Source: Ignavibacteriota bacterium (GTDB lineage: Bacteria; Bacteroidota; Ignavibacteria; UBA10030; SZUA-254). Taken from it: a stretch of 64,000 nt of DNA. Positions 9,244-27,284 of the stretch are shown piece by piece; the stretch's first letter is position 1, and every line of letters begins with the position of its first letter. A program made the translations under genes and the position numbers. The notes under the pieces were generated by a model. That model did not search any database, was not told the DNA's origin, and worked only from the letters and a program-made list of their open reading frames with translations. The stretch covers positions 62,001 through 126,000 of the forward strand of contig JACREZ010000023.1 of assembly GCA_016212665.1 (NCBI GenBank). Direction: 5' to 3'.

Positions 9244-9660
9244 ATGACTAAAATATTTCTCTCTTTGTTTGTTCTCATTTTGATTTCATTTTCAAGTCAA
9301 GTCTGTATAGCCCAGCACGATGATTCATCAAAAAATAAATCTCCCGAAAAGAAGTACGACATGAAAACTTACTACATGGTTTTCCTGAAAAAGGGACCGA
9401 ATCGTGACCAGGACTCAGTGACGGCGGCGAAGATTCAGGAAGGACACCTTGCGAACATCGGACGACTTGCAGAGTTAGGAAAGATTGCCATCGCCGGACC
9501 GTTCTTAGATGAAGGAGACGTTCGCGGAATCTTCATCATGGATTGCAGTTCGAAGGAAGAAGCGGACTCGCTTTGTCAGACCGACCCGGCTGTGAAAGCA
9601 GGAAGACTGAAAGCGGAAGTGCGTCCGTGGATGAGCGCACGAGGAGCGAAACTACCGTGA
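9244..9660 (+). CDS. Secreted YciI-like domain protein
   Basis: A 138-residue protein with a clear signal peptide (MTKIFLSLFVLILISFSSQVCIAQ). It is followed by a short polar linker and a YCII-related domain: YYMVFLKKGPNRDQD, then HLANIGRLAELGKIAIAGPF and the EADSLCQTDPAVKAGR segment. YciI proteins are small dimeric alpha/beta-barrel proteins with a conserved His-Asp pair that may be catalytic. H in GHLANI and D in QTDPAV are present here. Exported versions are common in Bacteroidota and their substrate is unknown. The stop codon TGA is itself the beginning of a 7-nt-phased repeat array. Confidence 0.8.
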   Translation: MTKIFLSLFVLILISFSSQVCIAQHDDSSKNKSPEKKYDMKTYYMVFLKKGPNRDQDSVTAAKIQEGHLANIGRLAELGKIAIAGPFLDEGDVRGIFIMDCSSKEEADSLCQTDPAVKAGRLKAEVRPWMSARGAKLP

Positions 9661-9692
9661 TTTGTGATTGGTGATTAGTGATTCGTGAATCA
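9658..9692 (+). repeat. 7-nt-phased degenerate array
   Basis: Five consecutive 7-base units of the form TGANTNR, for example TGATTTG and TGATTAG. The first three bases are the stop codon of the YciI-like gene. Phase is exact although the units differ from one another. Confidence 0.85.
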
Positions 9693-9778
9693 TTTAGTTT
9701 CAATCATTCCTTTCATATTGTATGTATTTCTTTGTTTCAAAAATATATTGCTAAATCTTACATCTCAAGTCATGAATC

Positions 9779-11014
9779 ATGAATAAACAAAAGACTCACC
9801 ACTCACGACTCACCACTCACGACTCACCTTTACAAGGAATTAAGGTTCTCGATTTAACGCGAATCCTTTCCGGTCCTTTCTGCACTATGAAGTTGGGTGA
9901 CATGGGTGCGGAAGTCATCAAGATTGAACAACCGGGGAAAGGGGACGACACTCGTTCGTGGGGACCGCCGTTCGTGAAAGGTGAGAGCGCGTATTTTCTC
10001 AGTGTCAACCGGAACAAGAAAAGCGTTACACTTGATTTGAAAGCGAAGGAAGGAAAAGAAATTCTCACAAAGCTCATCAAGTCGTGTGATGTGTTGGTGG
10101 AAAATTTCCGTGCGGGAGTGATGGAGAGTTTGGGATTTGATTACGCAAAAGCAAAAAAGTTAAATCCGAGACTTGTGTATTGTTCGATTTCCGGCTACGG
10201 ACAGACGAGCAGTCGCAGCCATCAACCGAGCTACGATTTGATTGTGCAGGGCGAATCGGGATTGATGGATGTAACGGGATTTCCTAACGGAGCGCCGACA
10301 AAAGCAGGAATTTCTCTCGCCGATGTTACGGCGGGAACACTTGCGTTCGAAGGAATTCTGCTTGCATTATTTCATCGAGAACGAACAGGGAAAGGTCAGC
10401 AAGTTGATATTAGTTTGCTCGATGGTTTGCTTTCGCTGTTCGCGTATCAATCGCAAATTGCACTTTCATCAGACAGAAAAGTGACACGCAAAGGAAATCG
10501 CCATCCGACTATTACGCCGTACGAAACGTTTGAGACGAAAGACGGATTCATCAACGTAGCCGTGGGAAGCGAATCTCACTGGAAGAATTTTTGTACAGCG
10601 ATCAAGCGAGATGATTTAATCCAACATGAACAATTTGCAACCAACTCGAAACGGGTTGAGAACCGCGAAGCGTTAGAGAACATTCTTGTTCCCATCATGA
10701 AATCAAAAAAGAGGAGTGAGTGGCTGAAGATTTTATTAAAGGCAGATGTTCCGGTGGGAAATATCAATTCACTTTCGGAAGCGTTGCAAATGGAAACGGT
10801 AGCCGAACGTGAGATGGTTGTAGCAGTGAAACACCCGGCTATCGGAACTTTGAAGATGGTTGGTAATCCCATCAAATTATCAACCACGAAGGACATCAAG
10901 CGCACGAAGTTTTCACCGCCGCCGTTGTTAAGTCAGCACACGAATGAAGTATTGGGGTTGCTTGGATATTCTGACTCCGACATTAACGAGTTGAAGCGAC
11001 ACAAAATAATTTGA
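9779..11014 (+). CDS. Class III CoA-transferase (CaiB/BaiF family)
   Basis: A 411-residue family III acyl-CoA:carboxylic acid CoA-transferase. The conserved core starts at PLQGIKVLDLTRILSGPF near residue 17 and includes GDMGAEVIKIEQPGKGDDTR, the SVNRNKKSVTLDLK block and VLVENFRAG. The catalytic aspartate of this family is expected in the segment around YDLIVQGESGLM. The first 16 residues (MNKQKTHHSRLTTHDS) match nothing in the family. They are encoded by five exact 7-base units of the ACTCAC(C/G) type at 9794-9828. Either translation really begins at 9779 and reads through the repeat, or an unusual start lies downstream; no good ATG is available after the repeat. The substrate cannot be read from the sequence. 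Confidence 0.88.
   Translation: MNKQKTHHSRLTTHDSPLQGIKVLDLTRILSGPFCTMKLGDMGAEVIKIEQPGKGDDTRSWGPPFVKGESAYFLSVNRNKKSVTLDLKAKEGKEILTKLIKSCDVLVENFRAGVMESLGFDYAKAKKLNPRLVYCSISGYGQTSSRSHQPSYDLIVQGESGLMDVTGFPNGAPTKAGISLADVTAGTLAFEGILLALFHRERTGKGQQVDISLLDGLLSLFAYQSQIALSSDRKVTRKGNRHPTITPYETFETKDGFINVAVGSESHWKNFCTAIKRDDLIQHEQFATNSKRVENREALENILVPIMKSKKRSEWLKILLKADVPVGNINSLSEALQMETVAEREMVVAVKHPAIGTLKMVGNPIKLSTTKDIKRTKFSPPPLLSQHTNEVLGLLGYSDSDINELKRHKII
9794..9828 (+). repeat. 7-nt-phased array inside the CoA-transferase N-terminus
   Basis: Five contiguous 7-mers alternating ACTCACC and ACTCACG. This is the most homogeneous heptamer array in the window. It is read as the non-homologous N-terminal peptide of the CoA-transferase. 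Confidence 0.9.
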
Positions 11015-22148: not shown

Positions 22149-24827
22149 ATGTTAAATAGATGTTTGTATTTACTTTTTGTTGAGTTTTTTTTCTTCGTGA
22201 CAATAAATTCACAACCCGTTAATAGGCCTGTGGTAACACTGCCTAATAATCAAAGCGAACCATTTATTGCTATCAATCCATCAAATAATAATGTCATGTT
22301 AGCTACATGGACTGAAAATATTAATAGAAGTCCTGGTTATGCGTTTTCTACCGATGCAGGCTTTACGTGGACTCCGTCAATTATACTTGCACATGACGGA
22401 AGTCCATCGGGTTGGGATCCTTCTGCCGCATTTGATAATGCCGGGACAGCTTATTATTGCTATGCGCACACCGTTTCATTTGGTCCTGTCTATGTATCAC
22501 GTACATATGATTTTGGGCAAAATTGGTTCCATAAAAAAGTCAGTGAAGACTTCTTCACTTATAATGATAAACCAGTAATGACCGTTGATAATGGTAACAG
22601 TCAATTTAATGGGAGGATTTATGTCAGCTATACAAAAATAGCAGAAGGAGGAGTAGATAGTGTTATGATTAAATTCGCTTCTTCAACTGATGGAGGTATT
22701 AATTTCGATATTAGATACACAATATCCACGTTTATTGGCACACGGGGAGGTTGTGCAGGTGTGTCAGCTTCTATGCCTGCAGTTGGTCCAAATGGGGAAG
22801 TATATGTTGTTTGGTTGGATGTAGCCAATTGTGATTTTAATGGGGGTACATACAAAATTAGAAAATCAACAAATGGTGGTTTAACATTCAGTTCAGCTAC
22901 AAGTATTAGTAATGTCACAATGCGAAAAATTACTTTCGGAAGTGATAGAGCAGTGAATCCTATTTCTTCACTTGCAGTAGATCAAATGACTGGGATTCTT
23001 TATCTTGTTTATACTGATTGGGCGAGTCAAATAGACACAAGTAAACGAATAAAATTCGTACGTTCAACTAACAATGGTTTATCTTGGACATCTCCATTGA
23101 ATATAGGAAATTTTGCATATGGTACATGGCAATTTCTTCCTGTAGTAACATCTGAACCGTCTGGAAGAGTATGGATCACTTTCATGCACTCACCAAACCC
23201 ACTCGATACAGTATATAAATATATGGACTCGTATATTGTAGAATCCACAGACGGTGGAGTTTCTTTTAGTATGCCTACCCGTGTTTCCTCAGTATCTTCT
23301 TATCCAACAAATATTACTGAGCATAGTTCAAATCATTATATTGGAATGACAGCAAAAAATGGTTTTGCTTATCCAATATGGACAGACTATAGGAACACTA
23401 GTGATGATATTTATAGCGCGGAAGTATCCGGTGGTCCAATGAAACCTTTAACAAATACTTCTACAGCTACCGCTTATGGGAGTACACCTAAATCATTGTA
23501 TAGCACCATTTCAAATCGCTGGCATTCTGTTTTTACAAGTAATGCTAATCTCTATTATGTTTATTCAACTGATGAGGGAAATTCATGGAACGATTATTCC
23601 CGCATAAGCGGCACAGTAGGAGGAGTAAAAGACTTCAGCAACCCCACTCTCTTTGAAACAGGAAACGGAACTCTTCATGTTCTTTTTGCCTCCGAAGGGA
23701 AAGGATTGTATTACACCAGCAAGACAACATCTGGGAATTGGACGACACCAAGAAAAACTCGAACTGTGCCAACAGCAAAATATCCTTCTTTCACAGTTGA
23801 TGGAAACGGAACAGGACATGTTGTATTCACTAGCGAAACGGCAATGGAAGTGCCTTTCACATATTTGTATTATGGAAACTTTAATACAGCTGATAGTACA
23901 GATACATTAATTATCAGAAAAACATTGAGTTCCGGTACTGGCATTATTACCGGTATTTCACTTACACAAGTGTTATCAGGCGGGCTTCACGTCATCTGGT
24001 CGGTCAACAATGAGATTTATTACAAAACAGGCACAGGAAGCAGTTGGTCCAGCACAACAAATATCAGTAACAACACTGGTTCTTCTGTGTATCCTTGTTT
24101 AATAAGCACAAGCGACCAATCATCATATGTTCTTCATGCTGTTTGGCAAGACAATACTCCTGGAAATAACGAGATTTATTATACCACCAGAACGAATTTG
24201 GTATCATGGCAAACACCAACCAATGAAAGTAATAATTCAAACAATTCCCGTTATCCAATTATTCGCGCTACTCCTTGGGGTGGAGTTCCGTTTTTTACCA
24301 TCATGTGGTCTGATAATCGAGATAACTCGGACCCATCAAACTTCGATATATGGTACAAGATAGGTCAAGGTACTACACCGTATAGACTTTCATCGACATC
24401 GGCTCTTTCAAATTATCCGAGTTTAACATTCAGAACAATAACTAATGGTATTCGTTTGCTACCAATTTGGACTGAAAGTTTTTCTACACCATATCTTATT
24501 TCAAGTTCGTTTGTTGATTATGACCCATTCGGAAAACGAATCATCGCCTCTCGTGAACAGCCAACAAGATTTGAGTTGATGAATAATTATCCCAACCCAT
24601 TCAATCCAATGACGACGATTAAATATTCATTGTCAGAATTAGTTCATGCACGATTGTCAATTTACAACACACTCGGACAGGAAGTTGCAACACTTGTGAA
24701 TGATGTTCAGGAGGCAGGTTTCAAATCGGTGGAGTGGGATGCATCTAGTATTCCGAGCGGGGTATATTTCTACAAACTAACGGCTGGTTCATTTATTAAT
24801 ACAAAAAAGATGTTGCTTGTCCGATGA
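22149..24827 (+). CDS. T9SS-secreted sialidase-fold (BNR) protein
   Basis: An 892-residue protein with a good AAAGGAATAAGTC ribosome site, a signal peptide (residues 1-22) and two successive sialidase-like beta-propellers marked by Asp boxes (STDAGFTWTPS, SSTDGGINF, KSTNGGLTF, RSTNNGLSW, STDEGNSWNDY). The end is a canonical T9SS type A sorting domain (MNNYPNPFNPMTT, NTLGQEVATLVNDVQ, PSGVYFYKLTAG). The conserved sialidase arginine triad is not evident, so enzymatic activity on sialic acid should not be assumed. Many such proteins in this phylum are surface adhesins or binding proteins. It is co-transcribed with the upstream LVIVD protein and both end at the strong terminator at 24900. Confidence 0.85.
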   Translation: MLNRCLYLLFVEFFFFVTINSQPVNRPVVTLPNNQSEPFIAINPSNNNVMLATWTENINRSPGYAFSTDAGFTWTPSIILAHDGSPSGWDPSAAFDNAGTAYYCYAHTVSFGPVYVSRTYDFGQNWFHKKVSEDFFTYNDKPVMTVDNGNSQFNGRIYVSYTKIAEGGVDSVMIKFASSTDGGINFDIRYTISTFIGTRGGCAGVSASMPAVGPNGEVYVVWLDVANCDFNGGTYKIRKSTNGGLTFSSATSISNVTMRKITFGSDRAVNPISSLAVDQMTGILYLVYTDWASQIDTSKRIKFVRSTNNGLSWTSPLNIGNFAYGTWQFLPVVTSEPSGRVWITFMHSPNPLDTVYKYMDSYIVESTDGGVSFSMPTRVSSVSSYPTNITEHSSNHYIGMTAKNGFAYPIWTDYRNTSDDIYSAEVSGGPMKPLTNTSTATAYGSTPKSLYSTISNRWHSVFTSNANLYYVYSTDEGNSWNDYSRISGTVGGVKDFSNPTLFETGNGTLHVLFASEGKGLYYTSKTTSGNWTTPRKTRTVPTAKYPSFTVDGNGTGHVVFTSETAMEVPFTYLYYGNFNTADSTDTLIIRKTLSSGTGIITGISLTQVLSGGLHVIWSVNNEIYYKTGTGSSWSSTTNISNNTGSSVYPCLISTSDQSSYVLHAVWQDNTPGNNEIYYTTRTNLVSWQTPTNESNNSNNSRYPIIRATPWGGVPFFTIMWSDNRDNSDPSNFDIWYKIGQGTTPYRLSSTSALSNYPSLTFRTITNGIRLLPIWTESFSTPYLISSSFVDYDPFGKRIIASREQPTRFELMNNYPNPFNPMTTIKYSLSELVHARLSIYNTLGQEVATLVNDVQEAGFKSVEWDASSIPSGVYFYKLTAGSFINTKKMLLVR

Positions 24828-24899: not shown

Positions 24900-24933
24900 A
24901 AAGAGCATCGGTACACCACCGATGCTCTTTTTT
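24900..24933 (+). terminator. Strong intrinsic terminator
   Basis: A perfect 13-bp stem (AAAGAGCATCGGT / ACCGATGCTCTTT) with a 5-base loop and a T-run, about 70 bases after the sialidase-fold gene. Confidence 0.92.
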
Positions 24934-24995
24934 ATCCCCTGCCGAACGTAGGCAATTCTCTTCTCCCCCTCAAAAACGAAGCAATTTCAGCATAT

Positions 24996-25394
24996 TCTCA
25001 GTCCTGAGCGGCGCAGGGAAAATCCTGTACGGTGCAGGACAAAGTCCGATTTACTCAGTCCAAAGTTCGTCGTGCGTAGTCCGAAGCCTCAACCATTCAG
25101 TCCAATGTTTTTGACTTGCAGTCCAAAGACCGGGCTTCTCAGGGCGGGGCTGTATCGCTCGCTCCGTGTCCTGCGTTGTTCCGTCTCATCCCTGCACAGT
25201 TCCGTCCAAGTCCTGAGCGACACAGCCAAGGGAAGATGCCTCTTCTCTTCAGCCTGAGGTGTCCGGGATTCAGCCTGCGCGGTTCAGGCTTTTCCCTGTA
25301 GTCTGTTATCTTGAGACGGAGGGTTGTGGAATTTAGTATGAGGGATTCAGGCTTGAGATAGAATGCTACGGAGTTGAGATATAAAAGATGGAGG
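24996..25394. repeat. Degenerate tandem array with an exact 21-bp period
   Basis: About nineteen consecutive units each exactly 21 bases long, with no insertion or deletion that breaks phase. In the first seven units the right end is CAG or TAG at 25014, 25035, 25056, 25077, 25098, 25119 and 25140. The middle units share GTCCTG or TCCCTG at the same offset (25168, 25189, 25210). The later units begin TTCAGCCTG or TTGAGA at 25248, 25269, 25311, 25353 and 25374. Overall identity between distant units is low. Short open frames across it translate as loose heptapeptide repeats but have no ribosome sites and contain in-phase stops. The array fills most of the 911-bp gap between the terminator at 24900 and the gene at 25739. 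The remainder of the gap (25504-25738) shows nothing recognisable. Confidence 0.8.
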
Positions 25395-25424
25395 AAGAGG
25401 ATGTTTCAACAAGCCATATATACC

Positions 25425-25503
25425 GTCATGCCGAATTTATTTCGGCATCCGTATGGTGGAAACGTAGCAGGTTCTCCCGATATTCATCGGGATCGGAATG
25501 ACA
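25425..25503. repeat. Composite hairpin repeat (REP/MITE-like), copy A
   Basis: The left part is a hairpin with stem ATGCCGAA / TTCGGCAT around TTTAT. The right part is a second hairpin, TCCCGAT / ATCGGGA. The outer ends GTCATGCCGA and TCGGAATGAC are inverted repeats with one mismatch. A related hairpin lies inverted at 26366. Confidence 0.8.
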
Positions 25504-25738
25504 AATTATTTTTTATTGTTTGAAACAACATCTAAGCGGATGCAGAAGATGGAGTCCACTTCATTTCGTTGAAAAAGAACTATGTGAAAACTTCATCTCT
25601 TTAATCAGAGAAAGTGGACTCCATCTAACAACATCAAAAATATTTTCTTCATCTAAACAAATTGGGAACTTTGGAAAATTGTTCTTCGTTGTAACAATAC
25701 AATTCACATAATTTTATTAATCATTAAGAGGAAATCTT

Positions 25739-26353
25739 ATGGATTACGTTCCAAAACCCGATCTGGGATTTCTCCAGTGGGGTGAAACATTCAACAAAAA
25801 CCTTGAACCGTATGAAGGACAACTTGGGATTACGGGCGAGGTAAAGACGCAGATTCAAAATCACTTAGATGGGGTGAAACTACGACTAAGTGAAGTTGAC
25901 GGTCAGAAAAAAACGTTGCAAGGATTGACGAAGTTGAAGAATCAGGTAGTCGCCGAGGCGAAACAATTCTTCAGAAATCTTGCCAACAAAATTAAAGCAC
26001 ACGATAGTTATACACCCGCCATCGGTGAAGCGTTAGGCATCGTCGGAGCGGAAGATACATCCATGCAATCCATCAACGATGCGATGCCGGAGTTCTGGCT
26101 CACCTTGCTCTCAGACCACATTCGTGTTGATTGGAAGAAGGGAATCTTTGATGGAGTGAAAATCAGGTGCAAGCGTGGAAATGAAATAACCTTTACTACG
26201 CTCGGTACAGACAATTATTCACCGTATGAAGATACACGGAAAAATCTTGTCGCCGGTGTGCCGGAAATGCGTGAGTATGAACTCATATATATGTTAGACG
26301 ATAAAGAGGTTGGCAAGCCATCAGCAGTGAAGAATATCGTGTGTAATCTGTAA
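25739..26353 (+). CDS. Conserved hypothetical protein of the Y-x-P-K-x-D...W family
   Basis: A 204-residue soluble protein with a clear ribosome site (AAGAGGAAATC). It begins MDYVPKPDLGFLQWGETFNKN. It has a helical middle part with a coiled-coil tendency (residues 30-100) and an Ig-like C-terminal half ending with SPYEDTRKNL, PEMREYELIYMLDDKEVG and a terminal strand. I recognise this layout from uncharacterised roughly 200-residue proteins that recur in Bacteroidota and related genomes, often in several copies. I know no assigned function. The gene sits between two inverted copies of a hairpin repeat (25425 and 26366). The stop codon falls inside a 7-nt-phased triplet of units (26343-26363). 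Confidence 0.75.
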   Translation: MDYVPKPDLGFLQWGETFNKNLEPYEGQLGITGEVKTQIQNHLDGVKLRLSEVDGQKKTLQGLTKLKNQVVAEAKQFFRNLANKIKAHDSYTPAIGEALGIVGAEDTSMQSINDAMPEFWLTLLSDHIRVDWKKGIFDGVKIRCKRGNEITFTTLGTDNYSPYEDTRKNLVAGVPEMREYELIYMLDDKEVGKPSAVKNIVCNL

Positions 26354-26363
26354 TCTGTATTAA
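26343..26363 (+). repeat. Short 7-nt-phased array over a stop codon
   Basis: Two identical GTAATCT units and a third related one. The TAA stop of the preceding gene lies inside the second unit. Confidence 0.6.
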
Positions 26364-26365
26364 CA

Positions 26366-26390
26366 GATGCTGAAATAAATTCAGCATGAC
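26366..26390. repeat. Hairpin repeat, copy B (inverted relative to copy A)
   Basis: Stem ATGCTGAA / TTCAGCAT around a 5-base loop. On the reverse strand it matches the 25-base left part of the element at 25425 except for one base pair, which is changed on both sides of the stem (C-G to T-A). Confidence 0.85.
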
Positions 26391-26413
26391 GATAATTCGT
26401 GCTATCGGAAAAG

Positions 26414-26448
26414 TCGGAGCGATGGGTAACTGTCGCTCCGATTTTTTT
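26414..26448 (+). terminator. Intrinsic terminator
   Basis: Stem TCGGAGCGA / TCGCTCCGA with a 10-base loop followed by seven Ts. It ends transcription of the hypothetical gene at 25739. Confidence 0.9.
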
Positions 26449-26606: not shown

Positions 26607-27284
26607 ATGAAATCAAGAATGGCAACATCAAGCAAGAAGAAACCCGTACGAGCGAAAAAGAAACAACCGCCTCAGAGACAACTCACGTTGACGAAAGCAC
26701 AACTGAGTTCCCGTGCGGAAGATTCGGAACTCATTCATGCCGCCATCAAAGGTAATCAGGAAGCGTACAAGCGACTGATGAAAAAGTATTATGTCTCGCT
26801 TACGCATCTGATTTACAAACTTGTTCACGATAAAGAAGAAATTGAAGACCTGACGCAGGAGGCGTTTATCAAAGCGTTTGCTTCGTTAAAGAATTTCAAT
26901 GAAGAGTATGCTTTCTCGACATGGCTTTTTAAAATCGCCACCAACAATGCGATTGATTATCTCCGGAAGAAAAAATTGGATGCATTCTCCATCGATAAAC
27001 CGCTCGAATCGGAAGATAGCGATTACACATTTGAACTTCCCGATTCGACCTACGAGCCGGACAAGGACATCATCGGGAAACAACGCTCACAGTTTATCGA
27101 AGAGGCGATTCAATCGCTCCCAGAAAAATACCGGAAAGTTATTTTACTGCGTCATAAAGAAGAACGTGATTACGCTGAAATAGCAAAAATGCTGAAACTT
27201 CCCATAGGAACGGTAAAAGCGCATATTTTCCGTGCGCGGGAAATTCTCTATAAAAAACTTCGTCACCAGATGACACAATATTGA
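26607..27284 (+). CDS. ECF-type RNA polymerase sigma factor
   Basis: A 225-residue sigma-70 family protein with a basic N-terminal extension of about 35 residues (SSKKKPVRAKKKQPPQ). Region 2 follows: AYKRLMKKYYVSL, then DLTQEAFIKAFASLKNF and STWLFKIATNNAIDYLRKKK. Region 4 is SLPEKYRKVILLRHKEERDY with AEIAKMLKLPIGTVKAHIFRA. ATG 26607 or 26619 could be the start; neither has a strong ribosome site. There is no adjacent anti-sigma gene, unlike the second ECF factor at 61367. The gene just downstream encodes a LiaF-like envelope protein and is probably in its transcript or regulon. Confidence 0.92.
   Translation: MKSRMATSSKKKPVRAKKKQPPQRQLTLTKAQLSSRAEDSELIHAAIKGNQEAYKRLMKKYYVSLTHLIYKLVHDKEEIEDLTQEAFIKAFASLKNFNEEYAFSTWLFKIATNNAIDYLRKKKLDAFSIDKPLESEDSDYTFELPDSTYEPDKDIIGKQRSQFIEEAIQSLPEKYRKVILLRHKEERDYAEIAKMLKLPIGTVKAHIFRAREILYKKLRHQMTQY

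Follow-up and report, generated by a model that had tools for sequence, protein, structure and literature searches.

Plasmid iterons are tandem sites of 17–22 bp, or approximately two helical turns, that lie beside a protein gene and on which Rep proteins assemble in a phase-dependent manner, binding being cooperative and lost when half a helical turn separates the sites (PMC4980987). In type III toxin–antitoxin (TA) systems such as ToxIN and AbiQ, an array of system-specific repeats lies directly upstream of a gene for a protein of ~200 aa (PMC8860590). REP, BIME and REPIN sequences, which go with RAYT, are intergenic palindromic repeats that often lie behind genes and are tied to a gene family (in part from PMC3116915), and archaeal Borg elements carry many rapidly evolving, independently arising tandem arrays (PMC9879509).

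The array described here lies within the window, by which we mean the whole 64,000-nucleotide stretch of Ignavibacteriota bacterium DNA that was analysed. Like iterons, it consists of direct repeats at a two-turn step, the period being 21 bp both in the window and across a class of such arrays; however, these arrays are chromosomal, usually have more units and differ in sequence at each locus, and their partner (predicted to combine a helical hairpin with a fibronectin-III (FN3) domain) lacks winged-helix Rep domains, with neither an origin nor plasmid features. Among known systems, iterons come closest as a working analogue, and any binding by the partner here is putative. Relative to those of Borg elements, the arrays differ in having a nearly fixed single period and a linked gene family on a bacterial chromosome. 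This uncultured bacterium and some of its relatives contain dozens of such short arrays, and nearly every member of the gene family adjoins one. The array and its gene point to an undescribed two-part genetic module, with no matching system in the family libraries, Rfam, PDB or literature searched. Repeat families normally conserve sequence; a fixed period combined with free sequence is unusual, and implies either that helical phase is selected regardless of sequence or that the arrays are copied in two-turn steps. Annotation would overlook both halves of the module: the units of the window array have diverged, so Tandem Repeats Finder misses it, and the type 1 proteins described below have no family model.

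A Diverged 21-bp Array in the Window

The array spans positions 24996–25394 of the window (core 25000–25384; no strand assigned) and comprises ~18–19 diverged units at a 21-bp step, as judged from autocorrelation against shuffles, its extent, local lags and a unit table. Identity at lag 21 is 0.462 across 24986–25400, versus 0.251 ± 0.022 (maximum 0.315) in 1,000 dinucleotide shuffles; lags 42 and 63 come next, in that order, and lag 21 is the highest among lags 15–27 in 13 of 16 sub-windows. The maximal segment runs from 25000 to 25384 (~18 units). An earlier reading of the DNA from its letters (hereafter the sequence-only reading) had proposed an array of this extent with an autocorrelation peak at 21, and both proposals were borne out. 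It had also called the 21-bp phase exact: the period stands, but not the exactness, as the CCTG word shifts by a single base near unit 8 and once more near unit 12, giving two 20-bp steps. Phase slips resembling these are found in the related arrays of C34 and of a sister species. The array is GC-richer than its flanks, as had been remarked (0.50–0.58 versus ~0.38), and carries a weak 7/14 signal (0.34) that is peculiar to it.

The array was correctly placed behind a terminator: sequence and homologous loci delimit a terminator-like hairpin at 24900–24933 (AAAGAGCATCGG...CCGATGCTCTTTTTT; no strand assigned), which bounds the homologous segment on its left and is kept at all four homologous loci introduced below. 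Between hairpin and array, a short segment at 24966–24997 (CATCAAAAACAAAGCAATTTAG-CACATT; no strand assigned) is likewise kept in the homologous arrays. The upstream neighbor (22149–24827, plus strand) encodes a protein of 892 aa that carries a sorting tail for type IX secretion (Pfam Por_Secre_tail) and lies outside the module. Downstream, on the plus strand, a leader (25385–25738) connects the array to the module gene (25739–26353), an open reading frame (ORF) for a 204-aa type 1 protein without a family model, characterized through Pfam, paralogues, alignment, AlphaFold and Foldseek. The array is noncoding, but it is not the lone site in a gene-free gap that the sequence-only reading described: it heads a module of array plus gene that recurs elsewhere. 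A second terminator-like hairpin lies 3′ of the gene (26412–26448, plus strand), at the right edge of a segment duplicated elsewhere in the genome. The gene that follows (26607–27284) encodes a sigma-70 family (ECF-like) factor, as it does at the orthologous locus of the sister species; a separate idea of an ECF-sigma promoter, based on GGAAC words before genes, proved not to be general.

Spacing in Homologous Arrays

We compared the window array with its homologues in its own genome (G000, 3.9 Mb) and in the sister species G002 (an Ignavibacteriae groundwater MAG, JACPVN01). The own genome holds two further copies, one at C16 (92%) and a diverged one at C34, and G002 has an orthologue at C145, beside the same downstream gene, and another homologue at C499. 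When the own C34 and G002 C145 arrays are aligned over 305 bp, 107 substitutions and no indels separate them, an absence measured on this one array pair; gaps occur in the short flank and none within the array, so the spacing appears to have been kept while the sequence drifted. The 21-bp phase, which on the sequence-only reading should persist at homologous loci, is retained at C145; the shorter C499 homologue has no significant lag-21 peak by itself. Substitutions between C34 and C145 are spread evenly over codon positions and stops occur in the frames. In this sub-family the units lean toward palindromes, their arms being matched more often than chance would give (z 4.3), and their wobble pairs show no strand preference. 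At two loci, L017:5121-5435 (G000 C34) and L020 (G002 C499), the array stands without a module gene; an IS-type transposase ORF adjoins the C34 array in G000, and what appears to be the start of a PIN-type gene is found at G002 C499.

A Class of Arrays with a Fixed Period and Variable Sequence

A local autocorrelation scan over 1.26 Mb of the own genome (about a third of it; threshold z ≥ 6.5) returned 50 hits, at periods of 7 (27 hits), 21 (19), 8 (2), 22 (1) and 15 bp (1). The 19 period-21 hits resolve into 16 distinct noncoding arrays (two of which gave two hits each) and one coding array, and the single period-15 hit resembles a coding repeat. Tandem arrays in this sample, apart from those of 7 and 8 bp, thus amount to 16 noncoding 21-bp arrays, one 22-bp array and two coding repeats, with almost no period between 9 and 60 represented except 21. 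Small families excepted, unit sequences vary by locus and the period stays at 21. The palindromic character of the units reaches significance in about half of the arrays. The sole 22-bp-step array (L079:1877-2110, G000 C37:84443; GGGATGTcTCCCtgaacgctga) is strongly palindromic, and in another genome of the order a 19-bp array, CCCACGCTGTGAAGGACTC, lies at L088:2900-3290 (G030 C98) beside REP-like-looking ACTCCGTCCTTCAGGGCGGAGTT hairpins. A strict two-unit pattern search found no match in the order, the own genome included; a covariance model, used after the strict pattern, pointed to further arrays of other sequence, most of its weak matches being due to chance. No strong 21-bp array was present in samples of 120–200 kb from G008, G009, G022 and G024, genomes with one or no member of the gene family described below, and we found no report of such arrays in the non-subscription literature searched.

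The sequence-only reading had linked the array to heptamer arrays and a 7-nt process, 21 being three times seven, and a related explanation would derive it from a decayed seven-codon coding repeat. The 27 local 7-bp arrays of the 1.26-Mb sample and the weak lag-7 signal of the window array would fit a 7-nt origin; across 20 arrays, however, 7-bp substructure is absent and the mean lag-7 z is −0.74, below chance. A coding origin, as a heptad-protein repeat, was rejected because the arrays show no coding signal: several have stops in every frame, there is no codon-position pattern and no open frame runs through the array. For the class, these origins are largely refuted, and we regard them as very improbable. 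The period-7 arrays are a separate kind; they use many words (GTCATTN, GTGATTN, GAGCAAT and AAAACCC among them), lie in the window at 9656-9828, 28281 and 40071 as well as across the genome, and are accompanied by the two period-8 arrays in the scanned sample.

The constancy of 21 bp across unrelated array sequences and bacterial families, with neither strand bias nor coding signal, favors the two-helical-turn idea of the sequence-only reading and is why a protein-binding scaffold, as a candidate role, appears to be the best reading of the arrays. Its alternative suggestion of a small-RNA source fared worse, as the arrays have no GU/AC asymmetry, no consistent skew and no Rfam match, and overall the earlier interpretation is partly supported. 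Arrays of this kind might also be functionless minisatellites produced by miscopying at a two-turn step. Such birth and decay would give arrays of almost uniform units (C34:190580) as well as strongly diverged ones like that of the window, both of which are observed, and many arrays do lie outside modules, but neutrality predicts neither the absence of indels at 35% divergence nor an association with one gene family across bacterial families, and we consider it decidedly unlikely.

The Arrays Adjoin a Gene Family

A listing of neighbors places several arrays directly upstream of genes for proteins of ~205 aa. Family searches of the own genome, which used two small alignments, recovered nine full-length type 1 genes (including that of the window) and three type 2 genes, all 12 of which have a 21/42-bp array within ~500 bp, upstream in 10 cases and downstream in two. 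By sequence search, type 1 occurs in seven of the 98 genomes of the order, with 14 matches in the own genome, 17 in G021, four in G002, two in G030, one each in G009 and G092 and a broken one in G016; 15 of the 16 members in those genomes with usable upstream sequence have a 21-bp-periodic array there. When the genes first noticed through their own arrays were excluded by hand as seeds, 20 of 23 members had an upstream array, versus 15 of 710 control ORFs (p = 8.5e-27), the controls being crude ORFs from one genome. For most genes, the 21-bp score tops all other periods tested, the exceptions being the two genes with downstream arrays and one at G021 C63. The arrays thus adjoin this gene family much more often than chance would give, in six genomes that belong to four families of the order, and our confidence in the association is very high; it provides an experimental handle on the arrays. 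One G021 member has no upstream array, and for nine of the 16 arrays sampled no partner gene was recognized. The profiles may not capture the whole partner family, as suggested by a gene assigned to type 3 on size and context only (C9, 221 aa) and by a gene next to C32:69455 whose 244-aa product looks helical.

Close paralogues can have wholly different array sequences: three from G021 that are 84–87% identical have much of their leader in common and different arrays. The leader of the window module is itself uneven, as its part at 25384–25636, which contains two inverted repeats (~25425–25503 and ~25548–25625), is unlike the C16 copy, and its final ~100 bp are 97% alike. A few arrays are alike across bacterial families (own C34 and G021 C1, z 4.9). 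In 25 modules, array composition showed no consistent skew relative to the gene (p 0.16), a result in favor of a role as duplex DNA.

The gene order recalls type III TA systems, in which the repeats are transcribed and processed into pseudoknot RNA. An RNA model of this kind accounts for the position of a system-specific array directly upstream of a ~200-aa gene, as in ToxIN (PMC8860590), and the C34 and G002 arrays do fold strongly. Folding is, however, about equally strong on the two strands and is not seen in the window array, and there is neither strand skew nor an Rfam match to any array. The 21-bp repeat here is present in many more copies, many arrays are nonpalindromic, two lie downstream of their gene, and an RNA antitoxin needs no exact 21-nt step. 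Nor does the protein resemble a ToxN-like endoribonuclease: it has no Pfam or PADLOC match, and its predicted fold is different. We therefore judge the RNA model to be quite unlikely.

The Module Protein and a Possible DNA Platform

AlphaFold models of type 1 (pLDDT 84) and type 2 (pLDDT 86) proteins both show a long helical hairpin and a beta-sandwich, a shared architecture at the level of prediction, and the type 1 sandwich matches fibronectin-III domains in Foldseek. Profile comparison detected no sequence link among types 1, 2 and 3. Type 1 has no match in Pfam, and none that convinces was found in NCBIfam, PADLOC or PDB; type 2 has a sub-threshold match to Pfam fn3 and weak matches in its FN3 region to PHROGs tail proteins, and no relatives of the module protein were found in plasmid and viral collections. 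Because most members are acidic (pI 5–6, with a near-neutral helical half) and the predicted structure contains no known DNA-binding fold, the module protein itself may not bind DNA. Near a type 2 module and off its array, at L236:981-1015 (G000 C32), there is an Rfam DUF805b RNA match above the gathering score.

We propose, at a probability that we place just below even, that array and gene form a two-part chromosomal module in which the array acts in cis, as a helically phased DNA element for protein assembly comparable to an iteron or operator array; our confidence in the mechanism is moderate. The module would be laid out as a locus-specific array with a 21-bp step, a leader of ~20–380 bp and a gene for a ~205-aa protein with a helical hairpin and an FN3-like domain. 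The array would act as double-stranded DNA, its two-turn step setting every unit on one face, and the module protein, a recruited partner or a nucleoid protein could assemble along it cooperatively and phase-locked, in analogy to Rep proteins on iterons. Units vary from module to module, so each array may provide a private address, whether for control of its own gene or for the separation of paralogous copies. A DNA platform would account for the fixed step, the missing indels and the lack of strand bias and coding, and the absence of strand skew and wobble asymmetry is the expectation for duplex DNA. The two downstream arrays of the own genome, the G021 exception, the nine arrays of 16 without a partner and the acidity of the protein count against it, and sequence-specific recognition by the module protein alone is hard to reconcile with the unrelated arrays of close paralogues. 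A broader formulation, which we advance tentatively and at somewhat less than an even chance, is that these loci constitute a new class of Ignavibacteria module, in which hypervariable two-turn-step arrays each accompany a member of the helical-hairpin/FN3 family, the sequence being rewritten while the period, leader and protein are kept, and in which the array would be a private DNA address for a nucleoprotein assembly serving self-regulation, copy discrimination or defence.

Gain and Loss of Modules

The window module was duplicated at C16 from hairpin to hairpin (BLAST limits 24906–25383 and 25637–26448), and an array upstream of miaB in the own genome is missing from that site in five relatives, so modules appear to come and go. 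Array and gene may be spreading jointly as a mobile cassette in which the array is a substrate for recombination or end recognition, comparable to REP/REPIN sequences and RAYT, a reading that can coexist with the DNA platform. The patchy distribution of the family, with 14 and 17 matches in two genomes and none in most, the empty miaB sites and the position of the C16 copy inside a truncated ORF, with a CATCGG word shared at the left joint, would all fit such a cassette. In contrast, the fold of the module protein is neither that of a transposase nor that of a recombinase, the protein lacks the Y1 (IS200-like) transposase domain of RAYT, and Y1 transposases are present in the genome without a link to the arrays. 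Neither conserved array ends nor target duplications were found, and close paralogues with different arrays are the opposite of what a copied end sequence would give. The arrays also depart from REP/REPIN sequences in their fixed two-turn step, in varying between loci and in having no single conserved palindrome, about half of them not being significantly palindromic. We consider the cassette unlikely as the explanation of the arrays. At the C16 site, the ORF truncated at the left edge of the module copy (L016:4821-5585, G000 C16) is beta-propeller-like, and the CATCGG word at the left joint is shared with the hairpin.
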